A DNA stretch of 64,000 nucleotides from Pseudomonas parafulva. GTDB taxonomy: Bacteria > Pseudomonadota > Gammaproteobacteria > Pseudomonadales > Pseudomonadaceae. The DNA is taken from assembly GCF_002021815.1 (NCBI RefSeq), contig NZ_CP019952.1, positions 4,309,001 through 4,373,000 on the forward strand, given 5' to 3'. Below, one piece after another: positions 6,093 through 30,551 of the stretch. The notes below the pieces were generated by a model. It was not told where the DNA came from. It was given only the letters and a program-made list of their open reading frames with translations, and ran no database searches. How positions within the stretch are numbered: the stretch's first letter is position 1; every line of letters begins with the position of its first letter. A program made the position numbers and the translations under genes.

Positions 6093-6108
6093 CTAGTAAT
6101 TCTGCTAG
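6093..6108 (+). promoter_or_regulatory. 16-bp palindrome upstream of RHS unit R1
   Basis: CTAGTAATTCTGCTAG, an inverted repeat with the pattern CTRNYA-N4-TGNYAG. It ends 59 nt before the GTG start of R1. The same dyad is found before six other RHS units in the window. Operator, promoter element or recombination site are all possible. Confidence 0.5.
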
Positions 6109-6167
6109 TTGTACCTGGCCTCGAAAGCGCCAAGACTCAGGCTTACCGACTTGCAAGGCCAAACCCT

Positions 6168-6866
6168 GTGTCAACAACGCTGCCTGCCTATTGCCCTTAT
6201 GGGTACCACCAAAATCAAGCAAGCCCTGCATCTATGCTTGGCTTCAATGGTGAGCGATACGACCCGTTTACTTATGGGTATGCCTTGGGTCAAGGCTACC
6301 GTTGCTACAGCCCGACATTGATGCGTTTCCAAGGGCCAGACGACCTCAGTCCGTTTCTAGAAGGAGGGTTTAATACCTATATTTATTGCAAGGGTGATCC
6401 CGTTAATTACCAAGACGACTCAGGGCGTGCTCCGACGCCCGCGCAACTGACTGCGGCCATCAATAAGCTGAAGCCTGTTTCATCGGCCCGTGCCGAACAG
6501 CAAATCTTTACCAAAACAAATAGGCACCACGAGCAACCCGCCGCCCGTGCGATTAAAATGAAGCAGAAGGCAAAAAGCGTGAGTTTTGCGGAAGACACCA
6601 TCTTTGAAAGGAACCGCTCTGCTCATTACAGGGAGTACCAAGAGCGAAAAAAACTTATCAACGAAATGAATCGGCTTCATACATTCAATGAGGAACTGAA
6701 TAACGACCTCAATCAACTCTGGAGCCCTGTCACTCGAAGCAACTATCGAGCGTATGACCTCTTACCCGATTATCGGCGCCGGCTTGAGTCGATCAATCAC
6801 AGCCTCCGTAAAGTGCAGTTGAAAAAGGAAGCAATCCAGTTACGCCTGCAACAAATCCGGCGATAA
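6168..6866 (+). CDS. Orphan RHS-core protein R1
   Basis: A 232-residue protein that is only the tip of an RHS protein. CPYGYH, LGFNGERYDP, ALGQGYRCYSPTLMRF, DLSPFLEGGFN and GDPVNYQDDSG form the conserved core (residues about 7-90). DDSG replaces the usual DPSG. The remaining 140 residues are basic and rich in predicted helix (ERKKLINEMNRL, RKVQLKKEAIQLRLQQ), without a domain I recognise; KSVSFAE recalls segments seen after the core in other Pseudomonas RHS proteins. The start is uncertain: GTG at 6168 is used, but the frame stays open back through the palindrome. No immunity gene follows; the next gene is convergent. Confidence 0.75.
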   Translation: MSTTLPAYCPYGYHQNQASPASMLGFNGERYDPFTYGYALGQGYRCYSPTLMRFQGPDDLSPFLEGGFNTYIYCKGDPVNYQDDSGRAPTPAQLTAAINKLKPVSSARAEQQIFTKTNRHHEQPAARAIKMKQKAKSVSFAEDTIFERNRSAHYREYQERKKLINEMNRLHTFNEELNNDLNQLWSPVTRSNYRAYDLLPDYRRRLESINHSLRKVQLKKEAIQLRLQQIRR

Positions 6867-6877
6867 AGCACGCTATT

Positions 6878-7453
6878 TCACACCGACGGAGTGGCTGCCG
6901 CTGCTGGCATAGTCCATAGACTACCCAGATTCTGCAACAACGACCCGGCAATCCCCTGCTGCCCCAGGTACTGCAGAATCAACGGCGCAAACTTCCCGAT
7001 CATCCCGGTATCCATCCCCAGCGCTTTGAACGCATTGTCCAGGTCGCTCCGGCTCTGCACATCGTAGCCCAACGCCTTGTTCAAGGCGGACTGGCTGCCC
7101 TTGTCATTGCCCAGCAATTCACCCAGCCCGCTCAACCCGCCCAGGACATTGGCGCCCGACAGCAGGTCCAGGCGCGGCATGACCTTGGTCAACTGGCCAT
7201 AGTCGTCGCTGCTCAGGTTGTTACGCGCCAGCCCCAGCATCGCCCCTGCCCCGCCCACGGCCTGCTCGGGGGTGATATTCAACCGGCTGCCCAGCGTGTT
7301 GAGCAGGTTGGCCTGCCCTTCAGGCGCCTACACCTGGCTTTGTTGCTGCGGGTTCTGCATGGCGGGGACGGCGTTGGCAGCGTCGCTGAGGTTGAAGGCG
7401 AACACAGGGCTTGCGGTGAGGGTCACCAGGGTTGCCAGGGTGAACGCTTGCAT
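6878..7453 (-). pseudogene. DUF2780 secreted protein interrupted by an amber codon
   Basis: From ATG 7453 the frame encodes a signal peptide (MQAFTLATLVTLTASPVFA), then a TAG stop at plus-strand 7328-7330 (after QQQSQV). It then continues in the same frame as a complete DUF2780 domain (GGAGAMLGLARNNLSS, YGQLTKVMPRLD, LGYDVQSRSDLDNAF, LGQQGIAGSLLQNL) to 6878, 192 codons in all. A CAG-to-TAG change would explain it. No other lesion is seen, so the inactivation looks recent, or the stop may be suppressed. The function of DUF2780 is unknown to me. It is convergent with R1, 11 bp away. Confidence 0.82.
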
Positions 7454-7572
7454 CGGGAGGGACCTCGTTGGCCGGGATGGCCTGGGAAACGACGATTTTG
7501 ACTCGGTAATTGGGAGATTGTTCCGATACTGTTGTCAGCGGGTGTTTTCCGACCAGAACCGTTAGCCACTCC

Positions 7573-7588
7573 CTGTTATTTCTGCCAG
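7573..7588 (+). promoter_or_regulatory. 16-bp palindrome with no RHS gene behind it
   Basis: CTGTTATTTCTGCCAG, followed by TAGCGG as at the R4 site. The next 90 bp encode nothing recognisable and then run into a truncated transposase. The module once driven by this site may have been lost when insertion elements arrived. Confidence 0.4.
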
Positions 7589-7675
7589 TAGCGGTGTGCG
7601 CAGATCGCCGAGATACTAAGCAGTACCCATGGTAACGGGGCGAAAAATATGTTCCGCCTTCAAAGCGAGCACAAC

Positions 7676-7902
7676 GGAACAAAGTACCCAAAGCACGCCA
7701 TCGAGCATCAGCCGGTCACTTACTCGAGGCCGACCATGCCTACGGGTTTCGATTAAAAGATCGGAAACCGCATCCCAGGCCTCATGCGAGATTTCGTATC
7801 GCTTTGCCATCACAGGATTCCTTTCCGTTGATGGCCGGGGAATGTACGAAATCATTGGGGATGCGTGGAGATAACTGGGTTTCTACGAATTTTGTACAGA
7901 GC
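7676..7902 (-). pseudogene. Truncated IS5-family element: 5' end of transposase plus terminal end
   Basis: Codons 1-45 of an IS5-family transposase (MAKRYEISHEAWDAVSDLL to DGVLWVLCS, ATG at 7810) closely match the transposase of the neighbouring complete element, then the match stops abruptly near 7676. The upstream end of the element, GTACAGAGC, lies at 7894-7902 and abuts the CTAG that is also the target duplication of the complete copy. The remnant and the full copy therefore sit side by side and share one CTAG. The divergence shows they are different, though related, elements. Confidence 0.75.
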
Positions 7903-8759
7903 CTAGGCTCTGTCTGAAAAAAGCCGTCGCATACACCGCAGGACACAAGCCAGCGAAACCATCGCGGCGTAACTTTTTGCGAGCTTGTCGAAGCGCGTGA
8001 CGATCCGGCGGTTCTCTTTCAACCAGCCAAACATGCGTTCGATGATGTTGCGCTGTCGGTATTTGGGCCGGTCGAACAGTCTGGGTAAGCCAGGCTTGGG
8101 CTTGCGCTTCATCGAGCGCAGCGGGATGACGGGTTGCATTCGATATTGATCGCAGTAGCGGCGTAGCGCTTCGGCGTCGTAGCCCTTGTCGGCAAGTAGC
8201 CATTTACAGCGCTTGCGCGGACGGCCACGTCGGCTCGATGGAATGCTGACCTCGTCCAGCAGTGGTTGTGCGTAGCTGATGTCACTGGCTTGACCGCCAG
8301 AGAGGAGAAAGCGCAACGGTATCCCGTTGGCATCGCAGAGCATGTGGATTTTGGTTGTCAGGCCGCCACGACTTCGGCCTAGAGCGTGATCGGCAGGCTC
8401 GTCAGGCCTCCTTTTTTCCGCGCTCCAGATGAAGCACGGGTTGCTCTAACAGCGGTCGAATCGATCATCCAGGTGTGGAGATCGATCAAGCCTTTGTCAT
8501 TGAGTCTGAGGTGCAATCGTCTGAGCATCTGATCGAACGTTCCGCGGTTTCGCCAGACTCGGAAGCGGTGATAGACAGTCGCCCAAGACCCGAAACGCTC
8601 GGGCATATCTCGCCAGGCTGCTCCTGAGCAGAGCACCCAGAGAACACCATCGAGCATCAAGCGATCACTGCTGCGGGGCCTGCCCCTGACGTGGACTGCC
8701 GTAAAGAGGTCGGCGACCACCTCCCATGCTTCATCAGAGAGCTCATAACGCTTTGCCAT
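7903..8759 (-). CDS. IS5-family transposase, expressed through a -1 frameshift
   Basis: The first frame (ATG 8759) encodes MAKRYELSDEAWEVVADL to WMIDSTAVRATRASSGARKK and ends shortly after an A6 run (8412-8417 read as T6 on the plus strand). The second frame, -1 relative to the first, is open across that run and encodes the rest: LLADKGYDAEALR and IIERMFGWLKENRRIVTRFDK. The DDE residues are therefore split between the frames (ID-ST in the first, DKGYD and the E of IIERMF in the second). A -1 shift gives a protein of about 285 residues. The stop codon TAG is not in the element: it is formed by the CTAG target duplication. Confidence 0.85.
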
Positions 8760-8851
8760 CACAGAATTCCTTTCCGTTGATGGTCGGCGACTGTACCGAA
8801 CCCAGGCTGTTCCGCGGCCACATTTCAGTTTCTTGGGATTTCAGACAGAGC
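7907..8851 (-). mobile_element. Complete IS5-family (IS427-like) insertion sequence
   Basis: 945 bp bounded by the perfect 11-bp inverted repeats GCTCTGTCTGA (7907-7917) and TCAGACAGAGC (8841-8851). It is flanked by the 4-bp direct repeat CTAG at 7903-7906 and 8852-8855, which I read as the target-site duplication. It holds one two-phase transposase gene on the minus strand. Size, ends, CTAG target and split transposase fit the IS427 group of the IS5 family. Confidence 0.88.
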
Positions 8852-8917
8852 CTAGAAGCAGACGTGCTTTGTGTTGGGACAGGTCGGCTTGTGAAACACA
8901 GCTTGAACGCGTGGCGT

Positions 8918-8933
8918 CTAGCAATTCTGCTAG
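8918..8933 (+). promoter_or_regulatory. 16-bp palindrome upstream of RHS unit R2
   Basis: CTAGCAATTCTGCTAG, with perfect 6-bp half sites CTAGCA and TGCTAG. It ends 59 nt before the GTG start of R2, the same distance as at R1. It lies 66 bp right of the insertion sequence. Confidence 0.5.
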
Positions 8934-8992
8934 TTGTGGATGGCCTTACTGTGAGGAACACTTAGCCGACACGTCCTTGCGGAGCCTACACG

Positions 8993-9770
8993 GTGACAAC
9001 GGCCTACAGCGCTTACGAGTACAACAGTCAATCTCACCAGCTCGCCATCCTTGGGCTTAACGGAGAGCGGTGCGACCTACTCAGTAGCTTACACATGCTA
9101 GGGCAGGGCTTTCGATCATACAGTCCCATGCTGATGCGCTTCAATGCATCGGACAGCTTAAGCCCATTTGATGACGGGGGGGTATCAATATGTACAGTTA
9201 TTGTTCTGGAGACCCTATCAACTATTCAGACCCAACGGGCAATTTTAGAAGTGTGGCGGGACGCCCAAGAAGCATCCTGAAAAGAACCTCGACCTCCGTG
9301 TCTATGTTTGCTGAAACGGGTACGCCACGCAGACAGGTTCAAACAGCCGACTGGGTTAAATTCCACTATTACGACGAGGAGGTTCGCATGAGATCTGCAA
9401 AGCTCTATACTGAGATGAAACCTATAAAGCTTGAGCCAGACATGACACAGCCCCCATTCGCGGCCCAACCTTATTACCCATACCTTCACGTCAAAAATTG
9501 ACAGAGGGTTATCGAGGATTGGTTACAATCTACAGTACAACAACCACTAAGCTTCATCGAGCAAGGTCATATCTTGAATATAAAGCGATCCGGCAGGAGT
9601 CAGTATCGCTAGACAATCTTGAGCGCATTGAAAAGCTGGAGTTCCGATACAGTACATTACGCAATCTGTATTATAGCTACCATACCGATTATAGGCGGTC
9701 GCCCCACAGCATGCGGCGGAAGTCCGGCAGTTTGGTTGACTGCTCGATGGTCAGAAACGAGCGCTCCTAA
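8993..9770 (+). pseudogene. Orphan RHS-core gene R2, out of phase at a G7 tract
   Basis: From GTG 8993 the first frame gives AYSAYEYN, LGLNGERC, MLGQGFRSYSPMLMRF and SLSPFDDGG, then leaves the RHS frame at a run of seven G (9176-9182). The -1 frame continues the core exactly: YSYCSGDPINYSDPTG, then a basic tail with SILKRTSTSVSMFAE, ending at 9501. A third frame, again shifted by -1, is open from 9498 to 9770 (HRARSYLEYKAIRQESVSL) and may be the original end of the tail. G8 or G5 in the tract would restore the first junction. It is either decayed or phase-variable. Confidence 0.7.
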
Positions 9771-9906
9771 AGGAACCGATGGCGTAGCCGGGAGTTACGA
9801 CAGTGACGTGCGTTTGCGCAGAAACTAGAGACACGATCTGGGCTTAATCGTCCTGATCAGGTTCTGGGGCCGCGCTCCGTGGTGAAACCCTGTATAAACC
9901 GGGGCC

Positions 9907-9969
9907 ATGAATTCTCTGTCTGGTGACCTTCCTGATGACCTTCTTTTGCTCAAGCAACTTTTGCTTTAG
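9907..9969 (+). pseudogene. Possible scrap of an IS66-type transposase start
   Basis: ATG 9907 begins MNSLSGDLPDDLLLLKQLLL and hits a stop at 9967. The wording resembles the first 20 residues of IS66-family TnpC proteins, which start with a similar PDD-LLKQLL segment. Only this short stretch is present. The rest of 9771-10018 shows no gene, only AT-richer sequence between R2 and R3. Confidence 0.4.
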
Positions 9970-10018
9970 CCCCTCAATCGCCAGGATGAAACCAGGTGCT
10001 GAGGCAGCGATCCTTCAC

Positions 10019-10034
10019 CTATCACTTATACCAG
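10019..10034 (+). promoter_or_regulatory. 16-bp palindrome upstream of RHS unit R3
   Basis: CTATCACTTATACCAG, a weaker copy of the dyad (half sites CTATCA and TACCAG), followed by TAG as at R4. It lies 78 nt before the R3 start codon. Confidence 0.4.
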
Positions 10035-10112
10035 TAGATGGACATAAACCAATCAAGATACTGATAGTCCATGGGACGCCAAGTACTCTCAAACATCCAG
10101 GAGGTCTGAAAG

Positions 10113-10892
10113 ATGGAGTTGATTGAAACACGTACTTATACTGCCTATGGGCAGTGGCGAGCGTTGTCATCGAACGCGACACGCCTAGGGTTCAACGGAG
10201 AGCCCATAGATAAGTCTTTAACACTCTACCTTTTAGGAAATGGCACCCGCGGCTATTACCCGGCATTAATGCGATTCATAAGCCCCGATACAGAGAGCCC
10301 ATTTTTCAGAGGGGGCCTGAATTGCTATTGCTTCACACTCAACGACCCGATTAACGGTAGCGATCCAACGGGCCACTTTACGATATTCAGTAAAAGCATA
10401 ACTTACAAATATCCATTATTGCCAGTCAAAAATCTCCCGGGCAAAGCCTTCTATGCCCCCTCCCCTGTTAACCCCGAGGTGAAGGCTCTAACGATAATGG
10501 CGCATTCTGGAGAGCAGGGCTTTGGCAATAGAACAACTGTAGACTATCGAGAATTAATGACGTTATTAACCAATGCCAAGGTACTCAAGAAAGGAATGCC
10601 CTTACATATCATAGGCTGCAGATCTGCACACTTGGCCGAATCAATCACAAAAGACTATAACATCGAAACCATTGCTTATAAAGACATTGTGAACGCCCCC
10701 TTTATCCGCGCACCCGCACTCCACTCCAATTTCAAACTCATCGAAAAAGAGTCTACGTTCAATAAGTTGACCGGCAGTAAATCAGCTTACTCCAGCCGGG
10801 TAGTTTTCGAACCCATCAGATCAGCTCGGAGGCATACTACAAACAGCCAAGCCATCAGAAACCCTAACCAACGGACTGATTTACTTTATTAA
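10113..10892 (+). CDS. Orphan RHS-core protein R3 with caspase-like tail
   Basis: A 259-residue protein started at an ATG with a strong AGGAGG site 9 nt upstream. Residues about 8-88 are the RHS core: YTAYGQWR, LGFNGEPID, LYLLGNGTRGYYPALMRF, ESPFFRGGLN and NDPINGSDPTGH. The tail holds LTIMAHSGEQGFG and, about 45 residues later, LHIIGCRSAHLAESI: a His followed by a Cys, each at the end of a hydrophobic strand. That is the layout of clan CD cysteine proteases (caspase, CHAT, C80). Unit R4 has the same arrangement. A protease effector is therefore inferred, not proven. The AT-rich composition and AUA/AGA codons differ from the backbone. No immunity gene follows. Confidence 0.72.
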   Translation: MELIETRTYTAYGQWRALSSNATRLGFNGEPIDKSLTLYLLGNGTRGYYPALMRFISPDTESPFFRGGLNCYCFTLNDPINGSDPTGHFTIFSKSITYKYPLLPVKNLPGKAFYAPSPVNPEVKALTIMAHSGEQGFGNRTTVDYRELMTLLTNAKVLKKGMPLHIIGCRSAHLAESITKDYNIETIAYKDIVNAPFIRAPALHSNFKLIEKESTFNKLTGSKSAYSSRVVFEPIRSARRHTTNSQAIRNPNQRTDLLY

Positions 10893-11087
10893 ACGAACGC
10901 TGCTACCGTCGCCATGACTCCATCCGCACCGGAGGTTGCTCAAATTCCCGAACATTTGAATGTGCATTATTCCCTGGTGGAGGCTTTTGAAAGATACTTG
11001 CCGGCGCTCTAGGTCGCTTTTACACTGGGCTGCATGATGGTCTCGGCCCGTCGTTGTGAACGTGCCGTCCGAAGGGCGCGGGTCGGC
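10893..11087. other. Spacer between R3 and R4, no clear gene
   Basis: Contains one 32-codon open frame (10914-11012, plus strand, MTPSAPEVAQIPEHLNVHYS...) with no recognised relative; it may be a scrap of a lost gene. The rest shows no gene, hairpin or repeat that I can support. Confidence 0.35.
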
Positions 11088-11113
11088 GTTCTAGGGATTC
11101 GTACAGCGCCTAG
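11088..11113. repeat. Degenerate IS5-type end abutting the R4 palindrome
   Basis: The segment ending in GTACAGCGCCTAG resembles the outer end of the truncated element at 7882-7906 (TTCTAC..TTGTACAGAGCCTAG). The final CTAG is at the same time the first four bases of the palindrome at 11110. This suggests that an element of this family once used the palindrome's CTAG as target and was later lost. Confidence 0.4.
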
Positions 11114-11125
11114 CATTTTTGTCAG
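11110..11125 (+). promoter_or_regulatory. 16-bp palindrome upstream of RHS unit R4
   Basis: CTAGCATTTTTGTCAG, followed by TAGCGG as at 7573. It lies 67 nt before the R4 start codon. Confidence 0.48.
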
Positions 11126-11192
11126 TAGCGGCTCCCCCCTCATCCGATCCATGATCGGTCACATCTCAGTGAATCATGACGGGAAGTCTCCC

Positions 11193-12115
11193 ATGCCAAC
11201 GAGTATGAATATCACTCAATTGTTCTACTCTGGTAGCCATTTGCATACCGTTTCAGGAGCAACTCACAGCGTCCTCCTGCGTGGCGGAGTCCTGCCACTG
11301 GCTGAACTCAACAGCACGCTCCCTACGGGATTGCTCGCAACCGATCAAAACGGCTCAGCCATGCACGCTGTTAACTCAGCTGACCAACTCAAGGTGTATA
11401 CCCCATACGGCTACCACCGCGCTGCGCCATCAGGGCTGCAACTCGTAGCCTTTAACGGTGAACGGCTCGATCCAATATCGGCAGGTTACCCGCTCGGCAA
11501 TGGCTACCGGCTATACAGTCCGGCACTGTTGCGTTACTTGGCGGCTGACAGCCTTAGCCCATTCGACATTGGCGGCATCAATCCCTATTGCTACGTGCTA
11601 GACGACCCCATCAATAAATCCGATCCTTCCGGACGTGCCCCAGGCATACCGCTGATAAACAAACTAGGTGTACTGGCAATCGCGAAAAAAAACCTTTTAG
11701 CAGGTCGCTTACCATCCAGGCTCATGGTGGGCCAGGCGAGGCGCTCGTGGGCAGTGAAAGACTGGGTGCAGCGGAATTTAATGCGTTTCTTCAAGAGAAT
11801 GGCGTGTTTGCTGAAAAATACAAAAAAATAACGTTATGCATGTGTTATTCAGCCAGCACCGCCGAGAATAATTCGATTTCTTTTGGGCAAACATTCGCCA
11901 ACTTTACCGGCCGTCCAATCAAAGCGTTCGATGGCATCGTATTTCACCTCGTGAGTGAATATAAAAAATCCGGAAAATTTGAAATTCAAATCTTGAAAAA
12001 GGACGCTCGCAATCACACCGATGCGCAAATCAGTGTCTCTCCGGACGTGCCCTTCAACTACCGCCCCAAAATATTCATGCCAATTGATCAACAAAAAAAG
12101 GTAAGGCAAGACTGA
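11193..12115 (+). CDS. Orphan RHS-core gene R4 split at an A8 run; caspase-like tail in the -1 frame
   Basis: Frame one from ATG 11193 encodes QLFYSGSHLHTVSG, GLLATDQNGSAM, VYTPYGYH, VAFNGERLDP, PLGNGYRLYSPALLRY, SLSPFDIGGIN and DDPINKSDPSGR, then runs into a meaningless end at 11831. The -1 frame, open across A8 (11685-11692), encodes LTIQAHGGPGEAL, AAEFNAFLQENGVF, KKITLCMCYSAST and PIKAFDGIVFHLV up to 12115. This is a His-Gly/Cys layout like that of R3. In frame one the run reads AAA AAA AAC, so it contains A AAA AAC, a classic -1 slippery heptamer. The tail may therefore be made by programmed frameshifting or slippage rather than lost. Whether it is expressed cannot be told from sequence. 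Confidence 0.7.
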
Positions 12116-12268
12116 CCAGTCGGAAATTTATAGGTTCGAGACAGCTCTAGTGCCACACTAAGAAATGTACAAAAATTTGAGCATGAAGAAAGCTTTAGCC
12201 TTTTCAAGACACAACAATGACGCCCCAACCGGCCTCAAATATCTTACGAGTAGTTGACCCATAGGGCA

Positions 12269-13262
12269 ATGGAGGCTTTCTTGCTTAATCTATTCTACCA
12301 ACACAGCACCTTGTGCACAGTCACTGACGCTCATCGTCAACGCTCCCTCTTTCGGTCCGATAAACATAGTCTGGCAGAACATAATTCCGATAGGAGTGGA
12401 GCACCTCTTCTGCTAGGCTACGGACCAAAGAAACATCATTCTGCATGACCGCTCTGGCCGGGATCTAGACGCTCACACCTATCTGCCTTTCGGATATTCA
12501 GTAAATTCCCCAGCCAGCGAATACTACAAGGCTTCAATGGAGAGTTCATTGAGCTACAGCTCGGCGCCTATCTACTAGATTTGGAATACCGCATGTATAC
12601 GCCTGCACTGATGCGCTTTCAATCGCCAGACAACCTAAGCCCTTTTAGGCGGGGGGGGGATCAACTGTTATGCCTACTGTAGCAATGCCCCCGTCAACTA
12701 CACCGACCCCACAGGCCATGCACTTGTCCACTTGAAAAATGGTCAAACACTGCAACCTTATAAGAACCACGCGGGGCCCCTGCCTAATGTGTTCAAGCTA
12801 TCCAGGCTAAGACGCACAACCTCTCATGCTAGCGCGCTGAATCCAAACCCACCCAAATATGTTCCTCCCACAGAAGACTATTACAAGAGGATCAGGGAGC
12901 CTGACATATTTGAATCAATCATCAGCAATCTTACTTTCCAAGATGCCGCCGCCTTTGCAAAGACCGCCCAATCCAATAGAAGCTATGCCGTGCCGGTCAT
13001 CGAGCGGTACATGTCAATAATCTCAGATACAGATGCCACCATGGAAGCCGTCCGGTCTGGCGTACTCCCCGGTGTCCCTAGGAGGTTTGGACAAAGCCTG
13101 GGCTTGGAGCTGAATCCCTATCTGCGAGACATAAACGCTTTAAGCTCAATTCATAGAGCAGCGCTTGGCGGCATCCGAAACGTTGTCCGACTTATAAGAT
13201 TTAACGGGGAGTATGATGCACACGCAAATCGTTTGCGTCGCGACAGTCTGCTGGGAGAATGA
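12269..13262 (+). pseudogene. Orphan RHS-core gene R5 with several frameshifts, one at G9; F-box-like tail
   Basis: Fragments in three frames rebuild one RHS unit: NLFYQHSTLCTVTD and RSLFRSDKHSLAE (from 12269), a shifted ATDQRN at about 12415, HTYLPFGYS (12473-12502), LQGFNGEF to NLSPFRRGG (12524-12658), then after a G9 run (12651-12659) INCYAYCSNAPVNYTDPTGH and a 170-residue tail to 13262. G8 would join the last two parts, but shifts near 12412 and 12505-12524 also break it, so it is decayed. The tail has PDIFESIISNLTFQDAAAFA, spaced like an F-box. No palindrome was found upstream. Confidence 0.68.
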
Positions 13263-14925: not shown

Positions 14926-14941
14926 CTATTAGTTTTGCCAG
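14926..14941 (+). promoter_or_regulatory. 16-bp palindrome upstream of RHS unit R6
   Basis: CTATTAGTTTTGCCAG, half sites CTATTA and TGCCAG, 73 nt before the R6 ATG. Confidence 0.42.
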
Positions 14942-15014
14942 TGGTAGAGGCACGGCGGGTGTTGAGAATGGACGTGTGTCAACCGCGCTCATCCGTTGCA
15001 CAGAGACGTTCATC

Positions 15015-15980
15015 ATGACGACAACGAACCGTTCACTTTATTTCTACCAGGCCAACAGACTCATCGCAGTGCAACAGAGTGGCGACCACCGCTCAGTTTT
15101 TCGCACCGCAGGCACACCCTTAGCCGAACAATTATCAGGACAACTGGGCACGAGCCTGCTCGCAGTCGAGGGGAGCGGCACCGTACTGCGGGCCGGCTGT
15201 GCTGGTCAGAACGAACCACACCACTACACAGCTTACGGGTACGATCCGAAACTGCCGTCCTACATGACGCTGCTGGGGTTCAACGGCGAAGTATTAATTG
15301 CGTTGCAAGATGACTACGCCCTTGGCCAAGGCCATCGCTGTTTCAGTCCGGTGAGGATGCGCTTCAATACGCCCGATAGGTTGAGCCCTTTCGAGGCGGG
15401 CGGTTTGAATACTTACTGTTACTGTGAAGGGGATCCCGTCAATTACATAGACCCCAGCGGGCAAATGAAACGCTTAGGGAGGAACGCCAAGCCGTCCGTG
15501 AGTGCTCATAATGCGAGTACCCGACGACCCCGCCACTCACCGCCTCCCACCACCGGGTTGTCAAACTTAACAAACAACAACAAGACGGTGGCGGCCGCAC
15601 AACCGCCTGCGTCAAGGAAACCCGCTGGGCTTTTACCCCGGCAGGCCGTATTACGTTCTGACAACCCCAATCCCAGCCCTAGGTCTGATTGGATAGAGGA
15701 CCCCAGAAGTGACTCATTTATATTCAACGTAAATATAAACCCAAAACCCACGGCCGTGGTCACACCCATTCAAACTTCACGGCCATCAAGCCCCTACCGG
15801 CAGCAGCCCCACTCCCCTGCATCTTCAGCGAACTCGTCAAGGGACTCGACGCCCGCTGAAAGTCGATCATCCAGTCCTCCATCTGGACTGATACCCGACT
15901 TCGTTCAGAGAACTATCGATATTCGCCAAAGCTCTTTTTACAGCCGTCGACATGATCCATCTAATTTCTATGGCTCATAG
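15015..15980 (+). CDS. Orphan RHS-core protein R6 with Ser/Pro-rich tail
   Basis: The best preserved unit, 321 residues. The N-terminal part has SLYFYQANRLIAVQQ, FRTAGTPLAEQLSG and SLLAVEGSGTVLRAG, a shortened form of the usual Pseudomonas RHS pre-core. The core (about residues 72-150) follows: YTAYGYDP, LLGFNGEVL, YALGQGHRCFSPVRMRF, RLSPFEAGGLN, GDPVNYIDPSGQ. The 170-residue tail is low-complexity, rich in Ser, Pro, Asn and Arg, and probably disordered, with a short ordered end (LIPDFVQRTIDIRQSSFYSR). No enzymatic motif is visible. It sits between fdhA and purU, converges with purU and has no immunity gene. Confidence 0.75.
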   Translation: MTTTNRSLYFYQANRLIAVQQSGDHRSVFRTAGTPLAEQLSGQLGTSLLAVEGSGTVLRAGCAGQNEPHHYTAYGYDPKLPSYMTLLGFNGEVLIALQDDYALGQGHRCFSPVRMRFNTPDRLSPFEAGGLNTYCYCEGDPVNYIDPSGQMKRLGRNAKPSVSAHNASTRRPRHSPPPTTGLSNLTNNNKTVAAAQPPASRKPAGLLPRQAVLRSDNPNPSPRSDWIEDPRSDSFIFNVNINPKPTAVVTPIQTSRPSSPYRQQPHSPASSANSSRDSTPAESRSSSPPSGLIPDFVQRTIDIRQSSFYSRRHDPSNFYGS

Positions 15981-22330: not shown

Positions 22331-23584
<1,254 letters not shown>

Positions 23585-23966: not shown

Positions 23967-25007
23967 ATGACAGATAAGAGCCAACAATTCGCCAGCGACA
24001 ACTATTCCGGCATCTGCCCGGAAGCCTGGTCTGCGATGGAAAAAGCCAACCACGGCCACGACCGCGCCTACGGCGACGATCAATGGACGGCGCGCGCCTC
24101 GGAATACTTTCGGGCCTTGTTCGAAACCGACTGCGAAGTGTTCTTCGCCTTCAACGGCACCGCCGCCAACTCGCTGGCCCTGGCCTCGCTGTGCCAGAGC
24201 TACCACAGCGTGATCTGCTCGGAGACCGCGCATGTCGAAACAGACGAGTGCGGCGCCCCGGAATTTTTCTCCAACGGCTCCAAGCTGCTTACCGCCCCAA
24301 GTACCAACGGCAAGCTCACCCCCGAGTCGATCCGCGAAGTGGCGCTCAAGCGCCAGGACATTCACTATCCAAAGCCCCGCGTGGTCACGCTCACGCAAGC
24401 CACGGAAGTCGGCACCGTCTACCGCCCCGACGAACTCAAGGCGATCAGCGCCACCTGCAAGGAATTGGGCCTTAACTTGCACATGGACGGCGCGCGCTTT
24501 ACCAATGCTTGCGCTTTCCTGGGCTGCAGCCCGGCCGAACTGACCTGGAAAGCCGGCGTCGACGTATTGTGTTTTGGCGGCACCAAGAACGGCATGGCCG
24601 TCGGGGAAGCCATCCTGTTCTTCAACCGGCAGTTGGCCGAAGACTTCGACTACCGTTGCAAGCAAGCCGGGCAATTGGCTTCGAAGATGCGGTTTCTGTC
24701 TGCGCCTTGGGTCGGGATACTCGAAGACGGCGCCTGGATGCGGCACGGCAAGCATGCCAACCACTGCGCCCAATTATTGGCATCACTGGTGAGTGATTTG
24801 CCAGGCATCGAGCTGATGTTCCCAGTGGAAGCCAACGGGGTGTTCCTGCAAATGCCCGAACCGGTGATCGAGGCCTTGCGAGGCAAGGGCTGGCGCTTCT
24901 ATACCTTCATCGGCAGCGGCGGTGCGCGGTTCATGTGTTCCTGGGACACTGAAGAAGAACGTGTGCGCGAGCTGGCGGCAGACATCCGGGCCATCGCCGG
25001 CACTTGA
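23967..25007 (+). CDS. ltaE: Low-specificity L-threonine aldolase
   Basis: A PLP enzyme of 346 residues that splits L-threonine and allo-threonine into glycine and acetaldehyde. The PLP lysine is in DVLCFGGTKNGMAVGEAILF; other blocks are NGTAANSLALAS, HMDGARFTNA and FYTFIGSGGARFMCSWDT. It is divergent from glyA and supplies or removes glycine. A degenerate copy of its last 120 bp lies at 25140-25262, in front of RHS unit R7, and its stop codon overlaps a weak copy of the RHS-linked palindrome. Confidence 0.94.
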   Translation: MTDKSQQFASDNYSGICPEAWSAMEKANHGHDRAYGDDQWTARASEYFRALFETDCEVFFAFNGTAANSLALASLCQSYHSVICSETAHVETDECGAPEFFSNGSKLLTAPSTNGKLTPESIREVALKRQDIHYPKPRVVTLTQATEVGTVYRPDELKAISATCKELGLNLHMDGARFTNACAFLGCSPAELTWKAGVDVLCFGGTKNGMAVGEAILFFNRQLAEDFDYRCKQAGQLASKMRFLSAPWVGILEDGAWMRHGKHANHCAQLLASLVSDLPGIELMFPVEANGVFLQMPEPVIEALRGKGWRFYTFIGSGGARFMCSWDTEEERVRELAADIRAIAGT

Positions 25008-25019
25008 TACTTCTGCCAG
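25004..25019 (+). promoter_or_regulatory. Half-conserved palindrome at the ltaE stop codon
   Basis: TTGATACTTCTGCCAG: the right half TTCTGCCAG is identical to the best RHS-linked sites, the left half is poor and contains the ltaE stop codon. It may be the boundary at which the R7 module joined ltaE. Confidence 0.35.
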
Positions 25020-25139
25020 TTTCTCCCTCCCGGACAGAACGATAGGCTGCTTGCACCTGGCCGGGGAATCACTCTTGTGAACTGGAGAAACGCGATCAAT
25101 GTAAAAAATACCTTCAGTCATTCAATAACGATAAAAAAA

Positions 25140-25262
25140 ATCGTGAAGGGCTTGTGGTTCAACACCCTCATCGGCAGCGACGGCGCAGGGTTCATGCGCG
25201 CTTGGGATAGGGAAGATGCGAGAGCTGGCAGTGGACATACGCAGCTTTGTCAGTCATTGACA
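25140..25262 (+). pseudogene. Degenerate duplicate of the ltaE 3' end
   Basis: GTGAAGGGCTTGTGGTTC, ACCCTCATCGGCAGCGACGG and GCAGGGTTCATGCGCGC match ltaE 24886-24940 base by base with scattered changes; TGGGATAGGGAAGATGCGAG and GCAGTGGACATACGCAGC continue the match to the ltaE end. Frameshifts make it untranslatable as ltaE. It ends just before the R7 palindrome. The intervening 25020-25139 is AT-rich and shows nothing recognisable. Confidence 0.75.
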
Positions 25263-25270
25263 CAGGCGTA

Positions 25271-25286
25271 CTGACAAATGTGCCAG
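25271..25286 (+). promoter_or_regulatory. 16-bp palindrome upstream of RHS unit R7
   Basis: CTGACAAATGTGCCAG, half sites CTGACA and TGCCAG. Its end is 58 nt before the ATG of R7, the same distance as at R8. Confidence 0.5.
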
Positions 25287-25344
25287 TAGGTGGGCCGGTG
25301 CAGGGTTGTTATGGTGGGCGTACGGTCCCACGAAAGCACCCCTC

Positions 25345-26202
25345 ATGCCAACCCGTTTATCACCAGCGTGTCCACGATCCACGTTGAGGCCCTCACCGGC
25401 CTTTACGCCATTCGGGTATAAGCCACCTCTGTGCAACATGCACATAGCCTTTGTCGGTGAAGTGCTGGACCCGGCAAGTTCTGCCTATTTGCTAGGTAAC
25501 GGACGGCGGGCCTACTCCCCTTTGCTAATGAGGTTCCGATCCCCCGATCCGCTCAGCCCGATGGGGGCCGGTGGCCCCAACTGTTATGCGTACTGCACCA
25601 ACGATCCGGTCAACTTCACAGACCCGTCTGGCCACGCACCGCTGCGCCGAAGTCCAGTAAATTCACAGCCTTCTCTTGTCCAGCATTACGCAGCGAGGGG
25701 GGCAAACGCGTTCGGCTCTGTGGTGGGTATGGGCATGTCATTCGCCGAGATAGCCATTGAGCACCGCCAACTGCAGCGTCAGCAGCCAGGGGCATCTTTT
25801 CCGGCCCTTCACAGGGCTCGCAGAATTGCGGGGTTTCATGCTCTGGCAACACCGGCAGTGTCGGATACCATCGAGTTGTTTTTGCCACCTGAGGCGGCGG
25901 ACCGTACAGGTTTGGTCGACAATCTCGGCCTGGCCAGCGCCGGACTTTTCACAACAGAAGCGGCAGTAGCGTTAGGTTCGACGCTGCGCACTGAGGGCGT
26001 CGCAGGGCTAATACCCGGAATGCAGTCGCTCATCTACGCTGCCGGGGAAGTGACCTTGATCGGGCCCATAAAAGATGCTGCCATGCATGTTGGCCGTTAT
26101 ACCGTGAGGCGGGTGGGGCAATTGCTTTCGAACAGAAGGCAGCCCCCCCCCGGTATCGTACTGCAAACTATCCGAGGCCTTCGGGAGCCTGCAGAGTCTT
26201 GA
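25345..26202 (+). CDS. Orphan RHS-core protein R7, C-terminus overlapping zapA antisense
   Basis: A 285-residue protein. Core at residues about 20-100: FTPFGYKPP, FVGEVLDPASSAYLLGNGRR, YSPLLMRFRSPDPLSP, GGPNCYAYC and NDPVNFTDPSGH. The tail has several Ala/Gly-rich hydrophobic stretches (AFGSVVGMGMSFAEIAI, VDNLGLASAGLFTTEAAVAL, MQSLIYAAGEVTLIGPI) that could insert in membranes; no enzyme motif is seen. The last 35 nt run antisense into the 3' end of zapA, so the final residues (IRGLREPAES) are zapA complement and not inherited RHS sequence. No immunity gene follows. Confidence 0.72.
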   Translation: MPTRLSPACPRSTLRPSPAFTPFGYKPPLCNMHIAFVGEVLDPASSAYLLGNGRRAYSPLLMRFRSPDPLSPMGAGGPNCYAYCTNDPVNFTDPSGHAPLRRSPVNSQPSLVQHYAARGANAFGSVVGMGMSFAEIAIEHRQLQRQQPGASFPALHRARRIAGFHALATPAVSDTIELFLPPEAADRTGLVDNLGLASAGLFTTEAAVALGSTLRTEGVAGLIPGMQSLIYAAGEVTLIGPIKDAAMHVGRYTVRRVGQLLSNRRQPPPGIVLQTIRGLREPAES

Positions 26203-26482
26203 CGATCGCCTCGACGGTCGCATCAACCTTGGCCTGAGTCTGCTCCAACACTTGCTGATGTTCACGCTGCTGTTCGATCTGCCGCGAACACAGGTTCAGT
26301 GCTGCCAAGACCATGAGCTTGTCGCCGATGAGTGTCGGAAACTGGCGCTTGGTCTCAGCCAGCACTGCATTGAGCATGCGAGCAGCCTGGGCCAGGGTTT
26401 CTTCCTGACCAGCGGGTGCCTTGAGGGAATAGTCATTGCCCAGAATGGAAACGACATTGACCGGGCTTGAGTGGGAGGTCAT
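26168..26482 (-). CDS. zapA: ZapA-like cell division protein
   Basis: A 104-residue protein with the ZapA pattern: an N-terminal beta part (VNVVSILGNDYSLKAPAGQEETLAQAARML), LIGDKLMVLAALNLCSRQIE, then a long coiled coil. ZapA bundles FtsZ at midcell. The canonical Pseudomonas zapA that I remember sits beside ssrS and ygfA, which are absent here, so this may be a paralogue kept near gbcAB. It overlaps the TIGR02449-type gene by 4 nt and is convergent with R7. Confidence 0.82.
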   Translation of the reverse strand: MTSHSSPVNVVSILGNDYSLKAPAGQEETLAQAARMLNAVLAETKRQFPTLIGDKLMVLAALNLCSRQIEQQREHQQVLEQTQAKVDATVEAIVKTLQAPEGLG

Positions 26483-26709
26483 GCGCCTACTGCACCCGCG
26501 TTGGCGCGTTCCAGCAGGGCCTGCAGGCGGGCGGCAGTGCTGCCGTTCTGCTCTTCCTGCTCCATCAGCGACAGCTGCAGGGTTTCGTTTTCTTCCTTTG
26601 CCTTGGCCAGTTCCTGGCCCAGGGCGGTGTTCTGCTCGGTGAGTTGAGCGTTTTTTTGCATCAGGTCGCTGACCAGCTGCTCGATTTGATTGAGGGAGGC
26701 TTCAAGCAT
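26479..26709 (-). CDS. TIGR02449-type coiled-coil protein, partner of ZapA
   Basis: A 76-residue, almost entirely coiled-coil protein (LEASLNQIEQLVSDLMQKNA with heptads of L, and ENETLQLSLMEQEEQNG). It matches the ZapB-like family that habitually precedes zapA in gammaproteobacteria. ATGA overlap with zapA indicates coupled translation; a division-related role is inferred from that pairing. Confidence 0.8.
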   Translation of the reverse strand: MLEASLNQIEQLVSDLMQKNAQLTEQNTALGQELAKAKEENETLQLSLMEQEEQNGSTAARLQALLERANAGAVGA

Positions 26710-26889
26710 GGGTCTATCTCAGGTTGTTGCGAGGGGCGCACACGATAAAGAAAAGTGCCGCCCATCGCCATTAAATATCGGATTCACAAGGTTTCCGCCC
26801 CGCAGATTGACAGGGTATCCACCTGCTTGTTCCGACCTGAGTCAACCACCGGTCAGTCAGGCTGCACAAACACAACCCCAGCCTGGCCC

Positions 26890-27990
26890 TCAATAATCGA
26901 TGCGCACATCCCCTTTCGGCACGCTGCAGCACGACAGGATGTACCCCTCGGCTTCATCTTCCTCGGTGATACCGCCGTTGTGCTCCATTTCGACTTCGCC
27001 GCCCAGCTTGAGCACCTTGCAGGTACCGCAAATGCCCATGCCGCAAGCTTTCGGGATCATCAGGCCGACCTTGGCCGCTGCAGCGTGCACGGTTTCGCCG
27101 GGGGCGATGCGGATGCTCTTCTCGCTGCCGATGAACTCAACCAGGTTGAGGTCGGCGGCGTCCACTTCGGGTGCCTCGGCGGCCGCTTCGGCGTGTTCGA
27201 CCGCATCGGCCTTGGCTTCGGCTGGCGTCGCCCCGAACGACTCCTCGTGGTAATTGTTCATGTCGAAGCCGACAGCCTCGAGCATGCGCTTGACCGCCGT
27301 CATGTAAGGGGTCGGGCCACAGCAGAACACCACACGCTCCATGTAGTCCGGCGCGATCAGCTCCATCAGCCGTTGGTTCAGGTAGCCACGGTAGCCCGCC
27401 CAAGGCTCGCCCAGGCCATGCTTCTCGCAGATGATGTGCAGGCTGAAATTGGGCACGCGGGACGCCATCTGCTCCAGTTCGCGATGGTAGATGATGTCCT
27501 TGGGTGAACGGGCACTGTGAACGAAGACCATGTCGACATTGGCGTTGGTGTCATAGAACCAGCGGGCCATGGACATGACCGGGGTGATGCCCACGCCGCC
27601 AGACAGGTACAGCACCTTGGCGCCTGGAAAATCGATGGCGTTGAACAGCCCCACAGGTCCGTGTACCGGCAGCTCGGCACCTTCGTGCATGGTGTCATGC
27701 AGGAAGTTGGACACCAGTCCGCCGGGTACGCGCTTGACCGTGATGGAGAAGCTGTAGGGCACCGATGGCGAGCTGGATATGGTGTAGGAACGCATCACCG
27801 GCTTGCCTTCGATTTCCAGCTCCAGGGTCACGAATTGCCCGGGCTTGAAGAAGAACATGATCGGCTGGTCTGCCATGAAGCAGAAGGTGCGCACGTCCCA
27901 GGTCTCCTGGATGACCTTGACGCAGCGCACGATGTGGCGGCCGTTGGCCCAGGTCTGGGTAGTGACCGGATTGAGGAAGGTTTCGGACAT
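26890..27990 (-). CDS. gbcB: Glycine betaine demethylase, reductase component
   Basis: A 366-residue FAD/2Fe-2S reductase that passes electrons from NAD(P)H to GbcA. Ferredoxin-reductase part: MRSYTISSSPSVPYSFSITV and YLSGGVGITPVMSMARWFYD. C-terminal plant-type 2Fe-2S domain: KACGMGICGTCKVLK and, later, SCCSVPKGDVRIDY. The start at 27990 is preferred over the ATG 6 nt upstream because the GGAG site is then properly spaced. It is divergent from gbcA across 294 bp that should contain both promoters. Confidence 0.94.
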   Translation of the reverse strand: MSETFLNPVTTQTWANGRHIVRCVKVIQETWDVRTFCFMADQPIMFFFKPGQFVTLELEIEGKPVMRSYTISSSPSVPYSFSITVKRVPGGLVSNFLHDTMHEGAELPVHGPVGLFNAIDFPGAKVLYLSGGVGITPVMSMARWFYDTNANVDMVFVHSARSPKDIIYHRELEQMASRVPNFSLHIICEKHGLGEPWAGYRGYLNQRLMELIAPDYMERVVFCCGPTPYMTAVKRMLEAVGFDMNNYHEESFGATPAEAKADAVEHAEAAAEAPEVDAADLNLVEFIGSEKSIRIAPGETVHAAAAKVGLMIPKACGMGICGTCKVLKLGGEVEMEHNGGITEEDEAEGYILSCCSVPKGDVRIDY

Positions 27991-28284
27991 GTTCATCTCC
28001 AGCAGCCGACAGTTGGCCTTTTTATGGCTCGGATGATGCTCAAGCTTGCGACCTTGAACATTCCTGCCAGCGACATCGGCGTACTTATCGCGACCAGCCC
28101 CACACGACAAGGGTTGCGGCGTCGTAATTCAAATCGGCCATGTCGCCCATGGATACGGTTCACGCCGCCTTCGGACGCACACTCCACCGCAAAACAACAC
28201 GCTGTTCATGGTTAACAGCCTTGCGGCACCACAACAACGATTAGCCACCTTTTGCCGGCCGCACACGGCCCCGAGGAATACACG

Positions 28285-29577
28285 ATGGACGTCACCGCAA
28301 CCCTGAGCCTGGGCGATCCACTTGAACCTGCACGCAAGGCGACTGCCCAGATGCTGCAGAACCGCGAGCGCACCTACTCGCTGCCCCAGCCGTTCTACAC
28401 CGACGAGCGTCTGTTCCAGATCGACATGCAGGAGATTTTCCACAAGGAGTGGCTGATCGCCGGCATGACCTGCGAGATCCCGGCGAAGGGCAATTACCTC
28501 ACGCTGCAGATCGGCAAGAACCCGATCATTGTAGTGCGTGGTACCGAGGGCAAGGTGCATGCGTTTCACAACGTGTGCCGTCACCGCGGCTCGCGCCTGT
28601 GCGTCAGCGAAAAAGGCAAGGTGGCCAAGCTGGTGTGCCCTTACCACCAGTGGACCTACGAGCTGGACGGCCGCCTGCTGTTCGCCGGCACCGAAATGGG
28701 CGCCGACTTCGACATGAACCAGTACGGCCTCAAGCCTGTGAACGTGAAGGTCGCTGGCGGCTACATCTTCATCAGCCTGGCGGAAAACCCACCAGCCATC
28801 GACGAGTTCCTGGCCACCCTTGACCACTACATGGAACCGTACGACATGGAAAATGCCAAGGTGGCGGTGCAGACCACCTTGATGGAAAAGGCCAACTGGA
28901 AGCTGGTACTGGAAAACAACCGTGAATGCTATCACTGCAATGGCTCGCACCCGGAGCTGCTGCAGACCCTGCTGGAATGGGACGACACCAACGACCCACG
29001 CGCCAGCCAGGAATTCAAGGACCACGTGGCCGCCTCTGCTGCCGCCTGGGAAGCCGAGAAGATCCCGTACCTGCACAAGAGCCACGGCCTGCGTAACCGT
29101 ATCGTGCGCATGCCGCTGCTCAAGGGCACGGTCTCGATGACCATGGACGGCAAGCAGGCCTGCCAGAAGCTGATGGGCCGCATTAAGAACCCAGACCTGG
29201 GCTCGATGCGCATCCTGCACCTGCCGCACTCCTGGAACCACTGCATGGGCGATCACATGATCGTGTTCACCGTGTGGCCGATCAGCGCCCAGGAAACCAT
29301 GGTCACCACCAAGTGGCTGGTGCACAAGGATGCCGTCGAAGGCGTGGACTACAACCCTGAGAACATGCGAAAGGTGTGGGACGCCACCAACGACCAGGAC
29401 CGCCGCCTGGCAGAAGAGAACCAGCGAGGCATCAATTCCACGGCATACCAGCCTGGGCCTTACTCGAAGACCTACGAGTTTGGCGTGGTGAATTTCATTG
29501 ACTGGTACAGCGGGCGCTTGCTGAACAACTTGGGGGCGGAGCCTGCTCCGTACTTGAAGGAAGTGCTAGCTCAGTAG
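28285..29577 (+). CDS. gbcA: Glycine betaine demethylase, Rieske oxygenase component
   Basis: Removes one methyl of glycine betaine as formaldehyde, giving dimethylglycine. Rieske 2Fe-2S ligands: CRHRGSRLC and CPYHQWTYELDG. The catalytic iron region is NNRECYHCNGSHPELL. 430 residues. The ATG at 28285 follows a GAGG site. RHS unit R8 and its own hairpin separate it from etfB and dgcB, which face the opposite way. Confidence 0.95.
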   Translation: MDVTATLSLGDPLEPARKATAQMLQNRERTYSLPQPFYTDERLFQIDMQEIFHKEWLIAGMTCEIPAKGNYLTLQIGKNPIIVVRGTEGKVHAFHNVCRHRGSRLCVSEKGKVAKLVCPYHQWTYELDGRLLFAGTEMGADFDMNQYGLKPVNVKVAGGYIFISLAENPPAIDEFLATLDHYMEPYDMENAKVAVQTTLMEKANWKLVLENNRECYHCNGSHPELLQTLLEWDDTNDPRASQEFKDHVAASAAAWEAEKIPYLHKSHGLRNRIVRMPLLKGTVSMTMDGKQACQKLMGRIKNPDLGSMRILHLPHSWNHCMGDHMIVFTVWPISAQETMVTTKWLVHKDAVEGVDYNPENMRKVWDATNDQDRRLAEENQRGINSTAYQPGPYSKTYEFGVVNFIDWYSGRLLNNLGAEPAPYLKEVLAQ

Positions 29578-29599
29578 TTATCAGATGGAGCAGTAGCGC

Positions 29600-29622
29600 G
29601 CTCTGCCTTTCACCGGCAGAGC
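29600..29622 (+). terminator. Hairpin after gbcA
   Basis: 8-bp stem GCTCTGCC / GGCAGAGC with a TTTCACC loop, 22 bp after the gbcA stop. It has no T run, so termination may be inefficient or Rho-assisted. Confidence 0.5.
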
Positions 29623-29649
29623 GTGCTTGGCCTCGTGGCATTCTTAACG

Positions 29650-30477
29650 CTAGCTCTGCACGTCATAGGGGCGAGTACCCCAGGACCTTATCTTGGCCGC
29701 AGCTGATATGAACCCACGGCCAACAGTGGATAGCATCTCGTCCACCATCGTGACATCCATCAGCGTCTCGAAGGCTACTGTGGGAATTTCTCGCGGGTTA
29801 GCCCGCAAATAACCGACTACCTCGCGAGCAGCCGCAAAGTTACCGATCGAGCCGCCGCTCAGATTCGTGACTGCGTTCACGACGCCCAGTACATCCGTGG
29901 CCGATTGAAAAGTGGCAGTTGCACCTGTGAACGCGGCAGTGAGCTGACCCGCCACCCCTGCGCTTCCAGTGATGAAGAATTGCTGGTTTGCAACCCTGGA
30001 AGCCTGCGTCAACTCCGTATGATTGAGCGGACTTTCTCTGCTTGCATTGGTGCTTGCAGCCTTGAATGCGCTTCTACGCCCAACAACGTTCCTGGCGGTT
30101 CGCATCAATGAACCGAAGAGCGTTGCGCCGCTGGATGCAACACCAATGGTTCTGAGCAGAGCGCTCCAGAAAGCGCCATCCGGATCGTGGCGATTGACGG
30201 GATCACCACCGCAGTACCCGTATGCATTGATACCCCCCTTGCCAAATGGGCTCAGCGAGTCCGGGCTGGTGAAGCGCCCCAGCCTGGGACTGTAGAAACG
30301 ACGACCGTTTCCTAGCGGATACTTAGCCGTCAGCGCATCCCTGAACTCACCACAGAACCCTATGCAGGTGGCCTGTGCCAAGCACCGGGCACCGTAGGGT
30401 GTGTAGGCAAGTGGCTTGCGGTGACTTTTTCCCGATACAGAATAAAGTCGGTCGGTGCTATCCAGAAGGGTCGCCAT
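29650..30477 (-). CDS. Orphan RHS-core protein R8
   Basis: A 275-residue protein from ATG 30477. A short leader (MATLLDSTDRLYSVSGKSHR) is followed by the core: YTPYGARC, GFCGEFRDALTAKYPLGNGR, YSPRLGRFTSPDSLSPFG, KGGINAYGYCGGDPVNRHDP. Its G6 tract is in frame. The tail is Ala/Gly/Thr-rich with amphipathic or hydrophobic stretches (GSAGVAGQLTAAFTGATATF, TDVLGVVNAVTNLSGGSIGN), suggesting a membrane-active domain, without sequence proof. It lies alone between gbcA and etfB on the strand of the dgc operon and has no neighbour that could be an immunity gene. Confidence 0.75.
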   Translation of the reverse strand: MATLLDSTDRLYSVSGKSHRKPLAYTPYGARCLAQATCIGFCGEFRDALTAKYPLGNGRRFYSPRLGRFTSPDSLSPFGKGGINAYGYCGGDPVNRHDPDGAFWSALLRTIGVASSGATLFGSLMRTARNVVGRRSAFKAASTNASRESPLNHTELTQASRVANQQFFITGSAGVAGQLTAAFTGATATFQSATDVLGVVNAVTNLSGGSIGNFAAAREVVGYLRANPREIPTVAFETLMDVTMVDEMLSTVGRGFISAAAKIRSWGTRPYDVQS

Positions 30478-30535
30478 GATCACTCTGACTCGCTTGGCAT
30501 ACGCGTAGAGTAAGTGAGGATGCGGTGCTTGCGAA

Positions 30536-30551
30536 CTGGCAGAAATGACAG
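30536..30551 (-). promoter_or_regulatory. 16-bp palindrome upstream of RHS unit R8
   Basis: On the minus strand CTGTCATTTCTGCCAG, half sites CTGTCA and TGCCAG: the copy closest to the consensus. Its end is 58 nt before the R8 ATG. Confidence 0.52.

Follow-up and report, generated by a model that had tools for sequence, protein, structure and literature searches.

A 16-bp dyad with the consensus CTRNYA-N4-TGNYAG precedes the orphan RHS genes in a 64-kb window of Pseudomonas parafulva (the whole stretch of DNA analysed here, C1:4309001-4373000 of a single-contig genome of 4,690,783 bases). It is probably a lux-box-type operator in the -35 region of a class II activator-dependent promoter, bound by a dimer of the LuxR family. 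The dyad is conserved across genomes, keeps a nearly constant distance to a -10-like element and co-occurs with LuxR-type proteins. Pseudomonas has many orphan RHS genes, and no published account of what activates them was found. If the dyad is a shared activator site, it would place RHS and other secreted-protein genes under one switch. A shared operator with fixed promoter geometry also ties RHS control to the question of the direct targets of PpoR-type LuxR solos, and a conserved family of stand-alone LasR-like helix-turn-helix (HTH) proteins gains a possible job.

Conservation and symmetry of the dyad

Dyads stand before R1, R2, R3, R4, R6, R7 and R8 (Table 1). Direct look-up in the window found all seven 16-mers at the coordinates given in an earlier sequence-only reading of this DNA, and its spacings to the start codon were reproduced as well (R1 59, R2 59, R3 78, R4 67, R6 73, R7 58 and R8 58 nt). 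That list was incomplete, having overlooked a full-strength dyad at 7573-7588 and a weak one at 25004-25019. The palindrome it described is likewise real, with a consensus that needed correction: the proposed CTGNCA-N4-TGNCAG fits exactly only two of the seven sites (R7 and R8) and also fits position 5850, inside a gene, with a low matrix score. With a matrix built from the seven sites, the weakest of them scores 23.1 bits; eight places in the window reach that value (the seven and 7573), and none does in 20 first-order-Markov shuffles of the window.

The sites were aligned on the dyad, giving 154 distinct sites from 127 sources, with more than one site in 20 of the 127 loci. A CT-N12-AG core is present in all seven window sites named above and in 152 of the 154, a count that is partly by construction because the matrix was built from such sites, which tells slightly against the lux-box reading. 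The outer CT/AG and A6/T11 are nearly invariant, and the left half is weakly conserved. Compensating base changes, claimed earlier as a sign of selection, are clear only for position pair 3/14, where the two bases are complementary in 65 of the 93 distinct sites (expected, 42.5; none of 2000 shuffles as high). Pair 7/10 has a weak excess of complementarity (39 against 33.1 expected; 123 of 2000 shuffles), and the remaining pairs are nearly invariant or without covariation. The R8 dyad is mismatched at its fourth base.

Promoter geometry

Beyond the matrix columns, the only strong signals in the alignment are at +25 (A, 71%) and +29 (T, 65%), accompanied by C at +28 (43%) and A at +31 (44%). 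A25 and T29 occur together in 93 of the 154 sites (next best offset, 30; mean of the other offsets, 7.2) and in 76 of 127 when one site per source is counted. Frequencies are 76% for A25 and 70% for T29 in the 118 sites of RHS loci, and 56% and 47% in the 36 other sites. Six of nine window sites, including the weak one at 25004, have both bases, and the other three have the hexamer one base off, as judged by eye. A25 and T29 would be the two best-kept bases of a -10 hexamer of the sigma-70 family.

The distance that had been taken as fixed, from dyad to start codon, varies from 58 to 78 nt and is leader length; nearly constant is the distance from the dyad to the -10-like hexamer, at 24 +/- 1 nt. 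From the position of this element, the centre of the dyad would lie near -43, the position of a class II LuxR activator. No -35 consensus stands out in the 154 aligned sites beyond the dyad itself. The C at -8 and the A-rich bases behind the -10-like element are, we presume, reminiscent of sigma-S promoters.

Occurrence before RHS genes and other genes

The genus sample comprised the best 80 of 389 named loci encoding RHS-core relatives (77 from Pseudomonas, 3 from Xenorhabdus/Photorhabdus); it was supplied by a scan with the core alignment, a scan of named genomes with the whole R6 protein having given no match. With the seven-site matrix at threshold 10, 55 of the 67 short (orphan) RHS genes have a dyad upstream, compared with none of the 13 full-length ones and 14 of 319 control windows. 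A 13-site matrix gives 54 of 67 and 0 of 13. Among its 13 misses, three (L036, L058 and L086) score 12-20 with a larger matrix, and five may be second genes of operons because a same-strand open reading frame (ORF) ends close upstream. An RHS-core search of the P. parafulva genome returned 16 match rows; outside the window, all five short RHS genes have an upstream dyad in the direction of the gene (scores 17.6-27.8), and the one full-length RHS gene has none upstream.

A profile from 91 sites, applied with strict filters and a cut of E <= 0.05 that miss several true sites of this genome, gave eight matches in it, seven of them listed. Four of these seven are R8, the RHS gene at 394 kb, the 7573 site and a truncated RHS gene at 2278651. 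The other three of the seven listed precede non-RHS genes, namely those for a 608-amino-acid (aa) protein at locus L201 and for an LPMO_10 protein (1.6e-40), and a short frame that by eye resembles the start of the L226 autotransporter. The dyad was also found before genes for lytic polysaccharide monooxygenase (LPMO), GbpA-like and autotransporter proteins, SpvB, an acyl carrier protein and others. Hence the tie to RHS genes alone, as the sequence-only reading had it, did not hold, and an RHS-only operator is ruled out, since top-scoring sites precede other genes. Forty dyad stretches were picked by hand, many for their distance from known RHS places, and therefore give no RHS fraction.

Proteins of about 600-650 aa with repeat-like sequence recur behind dyads (L201, L214, L221, L235 and L238); the two tested, L201 and L214, have no Pfam match. 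Of the three dyads that lie between two divergent genes at L201, the strongest stands 61 nt ahead of the gene for the 608-aa protein; no other place in this genome scored better with the profile.

Co-occurrence with LuxR-type proteins

Across 199 genomes, 121 are dyad-positive, that is, they have a profile match at E <= 0.05 under the strict filters. PF03472 proteins occur in 162 of the 199, PpoR-like proteins (E <= 1e-20) in 135 and the mtnC-linked LuxR solo in 20. Any LuxR-type protein is present in all 121 dyad-positive genomes versus 46 of the 78 dyad-negative ones (Fisher p 7.8e-16, ignoring phylogeny), and none of the 32 genomes without any LuxR-type protein, as defined by these classes, has a dyad. 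The PpoR clade (E < 1e-55) is found in 31 of 121 dyad-positive versus 0 of 78 dyad-negative genomes, and all 31 have at least two dyads each (mean 9.0). Stand-alone HTH proteins occur in 47 of 121 versus 3 of 78 genomes; this class was defined by E <= about 1e-23 and an open frame of up to 182 codons, plus genome G024, whose frame runs to 607 codons but contains an ATG 19 codons upstream of the HTH, and G043, a like case counted among the three. The set of the mtnC-linked solo (A4) was taken as 19 of its 20 genomes, G140 with a 79-position match being dropped.

Dyad number correlates with RHS number (Spearman 0.51). Among the 65 genomes with at least four RHS matches, dyads are present in 45 of 46 that have the PpoR clade or a stand-alone HTH protein versus 10 of 19 that have neither (p 2.4e-5, ignoring phylogeny). 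The exceptions are G115, with the HTH protein and no dyad, and the ten dyad genomes lacking both, all of which have another LuxR-type protein.

Candidate regulators

The regulators are likeliest to be LuxR solos, in this genome PpoR and/or a 94-aa stand-alone HTH protein. A single PF03472 protein at E <= 0.001 is encoded here (235 aa, C1:838008-838712), with an acyl-homoserine lactone-binding domain and an HTH, and its neighbours are, by eye, ferredoxin-NADP reductase-like and rRNA methyltransferase-like genes. Length and neighbours mark it as the putative PpoR orthologue and match the description in the accessible text of PMC8546723, where PpoR/PplR is a LuxR solo of the P. putida group, subgroup A of the fluorescent pseudomonads. 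A luxI search (PF00765) gave no match in this genome, nor in the control genomes; the signal would therefore be foreign or absent.

The 94-aa protein (HTH match C1:1727075-1727275) belongs to a family closest to the LasR DNA-binding domain. The best solved-structure matches of the stand-alone HTH family alignment are LasR (2.6e-29), RhlR and CviR, and the protein database contains 135 homologues (E <= 1e-5) of the family of the G000 protein, the named ones mostly from Pseudomonas. Each of the four dyad-positive genomes scanned for GerE (G000, G145, G160 and G180) encodes stand-alone HTH proteins, which are 77-98 aa long and lack a ligand domain. The response regulators common to these genomes are ordinary NarL-type proteins and were set aside as candidates.

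No one protein suffices as sole regulator. PpoR is ruled out in that role for G145, G160 and G180, which have dyads and no PF03472 protein at E <= 0.001; the mtnC-linked solo is ruled out by its presence in only 20 of 199 genomes (one partial, with 79 positions); and the stand-alone HTH protein was not found as such in the dyad-rich G141, G188, G133, G173 and others.

Several arrangements of these genes were observed. G180 has two stand-alone HTH proteins (L267 and L298): one lies at the PpoR locus, between methyltransferase-like and ferredoxin-NADP reductase-like genes, which is suggestive of a PpoR that lost its sensor; the other adjoins an orphan RHS gene with a weak upstream dyad. In G145 and G160 (L268 and L281), a NarL-type response regulator gene is immediately preceded by one for a stand-alone LasR-like HTH protein, in a region adjoining ahpC-like and transhydrogenase-like genes (named by eye). 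In G065 (L165), ppoR is in two pieces, and the genome also has a stand-alone HTH protein and 10 dyads. G195 (L177), without a dyad match, has a 314-aa LuxR-type frame (0.0118 to PF03472) adjoining a possibly RHS-related or effector-like gene.

Proposed mechanism and points against it

The earlier suggestion of an operator for a common dimeric regulator gains support from the genus-wide occurrence, the CT-N12-AG core, the constant -10 distance and the co-occurrence with LuxR-type proteins. From these observations we infer binding, activation and the identity of the regulator. A LuxR-family dimer would bind the dyad, centred at about -43, and the bound dimer would recruit RNA polymerase to the -10-like element 24 +/- 1 nt further on; this recruitment would activate the orphan RHS genes as well as others for secreted or surface proteins. 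The dyad is a well-supported lux-box-type promoter element whose regulon is wider than RHS, and the regulator class is likely.

A broader reading is tentative, and we hold it at somewhat less than even confidence. The sites might belong to a genus-wide contact-and-colonisation regulon that works through lux boxes without a cognate synthase, with an interchangeable regulator, either PpoR as an eavesdropper or a ligand-free HTH protein. Its members would include the orphan RHS, LPMO, GbpA-like, autotransporter and SpvB proteins and the recurrent 600-aa repeat proteins. The LasR-like stand-alone HTH protein would sometimes have been derived by loss of the sensor domain, and lineages would differ in their regulator.

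Several results weigh against a LuxR-type activator at these sites. No single regulator orthologue is present in all dyad genomes, and several dyad-rich ones have no stand-alone HTH protein; no PF03472 protein at E <= 0.001 is encoded in the dyad-bearing G145, G160 and G180, and 20 genomes with at least four dyads have only a more distant PpoR-like protein. Conversely, G043 and G192 have a stand-alone HTH protein and no dyad, and G115 has both the HTH protein and RHS genes and no dyad. Twelve of the 67 short RHS genes fall below the threshold of the seven-site matrix. Lineage may explain part of the association because genomes without a LuxR-type protein average 0.1 RHS genes; the Fisher tests ignore phylogeny, and the class thresholds were set after the data had been seen. 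Absence of a LuxR-type protein also depends on the classes, since a loose LuxR-type HTH match (E <= 1e-12) occurs in 185 of 199 genomes. No dyad precedes the main-clade stand-alone HTH genes, with dyad-like matches at 3 of 30 HTH loci (L325, L327 and L328), and none precedes ppoR, 30 PpoR and 10 mtnC-linked loci having given one match (L161), behind the gene. Furthermore, no RHS gene is named among the 62 genes changed by PpoR overexpression in the accessible text of PMC2703642, or in the printed pplR-dependent table, which shows part of 84 genes (PMC11543582); these tables use KT2440 gene names and one growth condition each, and strains and arrays differ.

Alternative explanations

The dyad could instead be the operator of another family of dimeric activators, CRP/FNR-like or a NarL-type response regulator, with a convergent likeness to the lux box, which we regard as unlikely though the strongest of the alternatives. 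Class II placement near -41.5 fits CRP/FNR proteins too. The lack of a PF03472 protein in the dyad-bearing G145, G160 and G180 also favours this explanation, but these genomes do encode LasR-like stand-alone HTH proteins. A CT-N12-AG core placed near -43 is that of a lux box, and the GerE proteins with reciprocal best matches in all four scanned genomes are ordinary response regulators. The silence of the PpoR/PplR tables, as printed, on RHS genes counts on its side (PMC2703642, PMC11543582).

Overlap of the dyad with the place of the -35 hexamer would also suit a repressor operator overlapping the -35 region. We consider this improbable: the constant -10 distance (93 of 154 sites) is instead expected of an activator that contacts polymerase, and there is no -35 consensus beyond the dyad. 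A recombination or integration site of RHS cassettes had been proposed in the sequence-only reading, and the RHS genes are indeed clustered in the window; this is very improbable given that the -10 distance is kept and that the same dyad precedes unrelated genes (LPMO, autotransporter and acyl carrier protein), a judgement made without a systematic search for paired flanking copies. Least credible is a repetitive extragenic palindromic (REP)-like repeat or chance motif, the outcome that would have undone the earlier proposal: the loose earlier pattern with one mismatch allowed has 432 genome matches (145 for the reversed control), but the matrix finds 8 places in the window against 0 in 20 shuffles, and the profile 8 in the genome (E <= 0.05, strict filters), at promoters rather than in many copies away from them.

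Comparison with known systems

The motif class, the lux box or las-rhl box, is already well known. A lux box usually stands before the -10 element, with its centre near -42/-43. The dyad here resembles the las-rhl/lux box of LasR and RhlR in its 16 bp, CT-N12-AG core and place before the putative -10 element, with the centre near -42/-43, and the candidate regulators have an HTH of the LasR/RhlR type. CT-N12-AG is the core reported for RhlR and the las-rhl box in the accessible portions of PMC2018727 and PMC4074388. The sites share with a lux box this core, dyad symmetry and an overlap with the -35 region at a fixed distance to the -10-like element. Unlike in the las-rhl/lux systems, there is no luxI match in this genome (by a search that gave none in the control genomes either), the left half of the dyad is weakly conserved, the targets are orphan RHS and surface or secreted-protein genes, and the regulator may be a solo or lack a ligand domain.

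The LexA SOS box, CTGT-N8-ACAG, is likewise a 16-bp dyad, and some sites here begin with CTG and end with CAG; however, the dyad departs from it at positions 3 to 6 (CTRNYA), and many sites here are CTA...TAG variants. A further comparison involves COG3501, which we take to be the VgrG group and not orphan RHS-core genes. The phz box of the PhzR regulon of P. chlororaphis PA23 is a lux-box-like element, as here, and one Rhs-annotated gene (COG3501) appears in the PA23 table in a phz-box-candidate operon that is down in quorum-sensing mutants, but the box as printed does not resemble the dyad (PMC7048289, accessible text). For PpoR/PplR, no lux box or RHS target is reported in the accessible parts of PMC8546723, PMC2703642 and PMC11543582. 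The earlier statement that no description was known stands for the regulon and overlooked the motif class: searches of the openly readable literature showed no description of the regulon or of a link between orphan RHS genes and a lux box, the nearest being the phz-box operon (PMC7048289).

Sites and genes in the window

Table 1. Dyads, -10-like hexamers and orphan RHS genes (positions within the window)
Feature	Position	Strand	Remark
Lux-box-like dyad of R1	6093..6108	+	CTAGTAATTCTGCTAG
-10-like hexamer of R1	6132..6137	+	AAGACT
R1, orphan RHS gene	6168..6866	+	Rhs_assc_core TIGR03696, 7.8e-16
Eighth dyad	7573..7588	+	CTGTTATTTCTGCCAG; no remaining RHS gene downstream
-10-like hexamer of the 7573 promoter	7612..7617	+	GATACT
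Dyad of R2	8918..8933	+	CTAGCAATTCTGCTAG
-10-like hexamer of R2	8957..8962	+	AACACT
R2, orphan RHS gene	8993..9501	+	two overlapping frames (8993-9280, 9190-9501)
Dyad of R3	10019..10034	+	CTATCACTTATACCAG
-10-like hexamer of R3	10057..10062	+	GATACT, shifted -1 (by eye)
R3, orphan RHS gene	10113..10892	+	
Dyad of R4	11110..11125	+	CTAGCATTTTTGTCAG
-10-like hexamer of R4	11150..11155	+	CATGAT, shifted +1 (by eye)
R4, orphan RHS gene	11193..11831	+	ORF opens at 11034
Dyad of R6	14926..14941	+	CTATTAGTTTTGCCAG
-10-like hexamer of R6	14964..14969	+	GAGAAT, shifted -1 (by eye)
R6, orphan RHS gene	15015..15980	+	ORF opens at 14976
Weak dyad-like site	25004..25019	+	TTGATACTTCTGCCAG; A25/T29 present, begins TT; status uncertain
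Dyad of R7	25271..25286	+	CTGACAAATGTGCCAG
-10-like hexamer of R7	25310..25315	+	TATGGT
R7, orphan RHS gene	25345..26202	+	ORF opens at 25306
Dyad of R8	30536..30551	-	CTGTCATTTCTGCCAG, read on the minus strand
-10-like hexamer of R8	30507..30512	-	TACTCT
R8, orphan RHS gene	29650..30477	-	ORF opens at 30603

The promoter at 7573, with a full dyad and its GATACT, is followed by remnants of transposase genes, which begin at about 7640, and by an IS5-like element at about 7885-8855, as judged by eye; its RHS gene was apparently lost to insertions of such elements. The frame switch in R2 coincides with a run of seven G bases (9176-9182), and R2 is either a pseudogene or a slippage site. R5 (12290-12682), a remnant of an RHS gene interrupted by stops, lacks a dyad close upstream.

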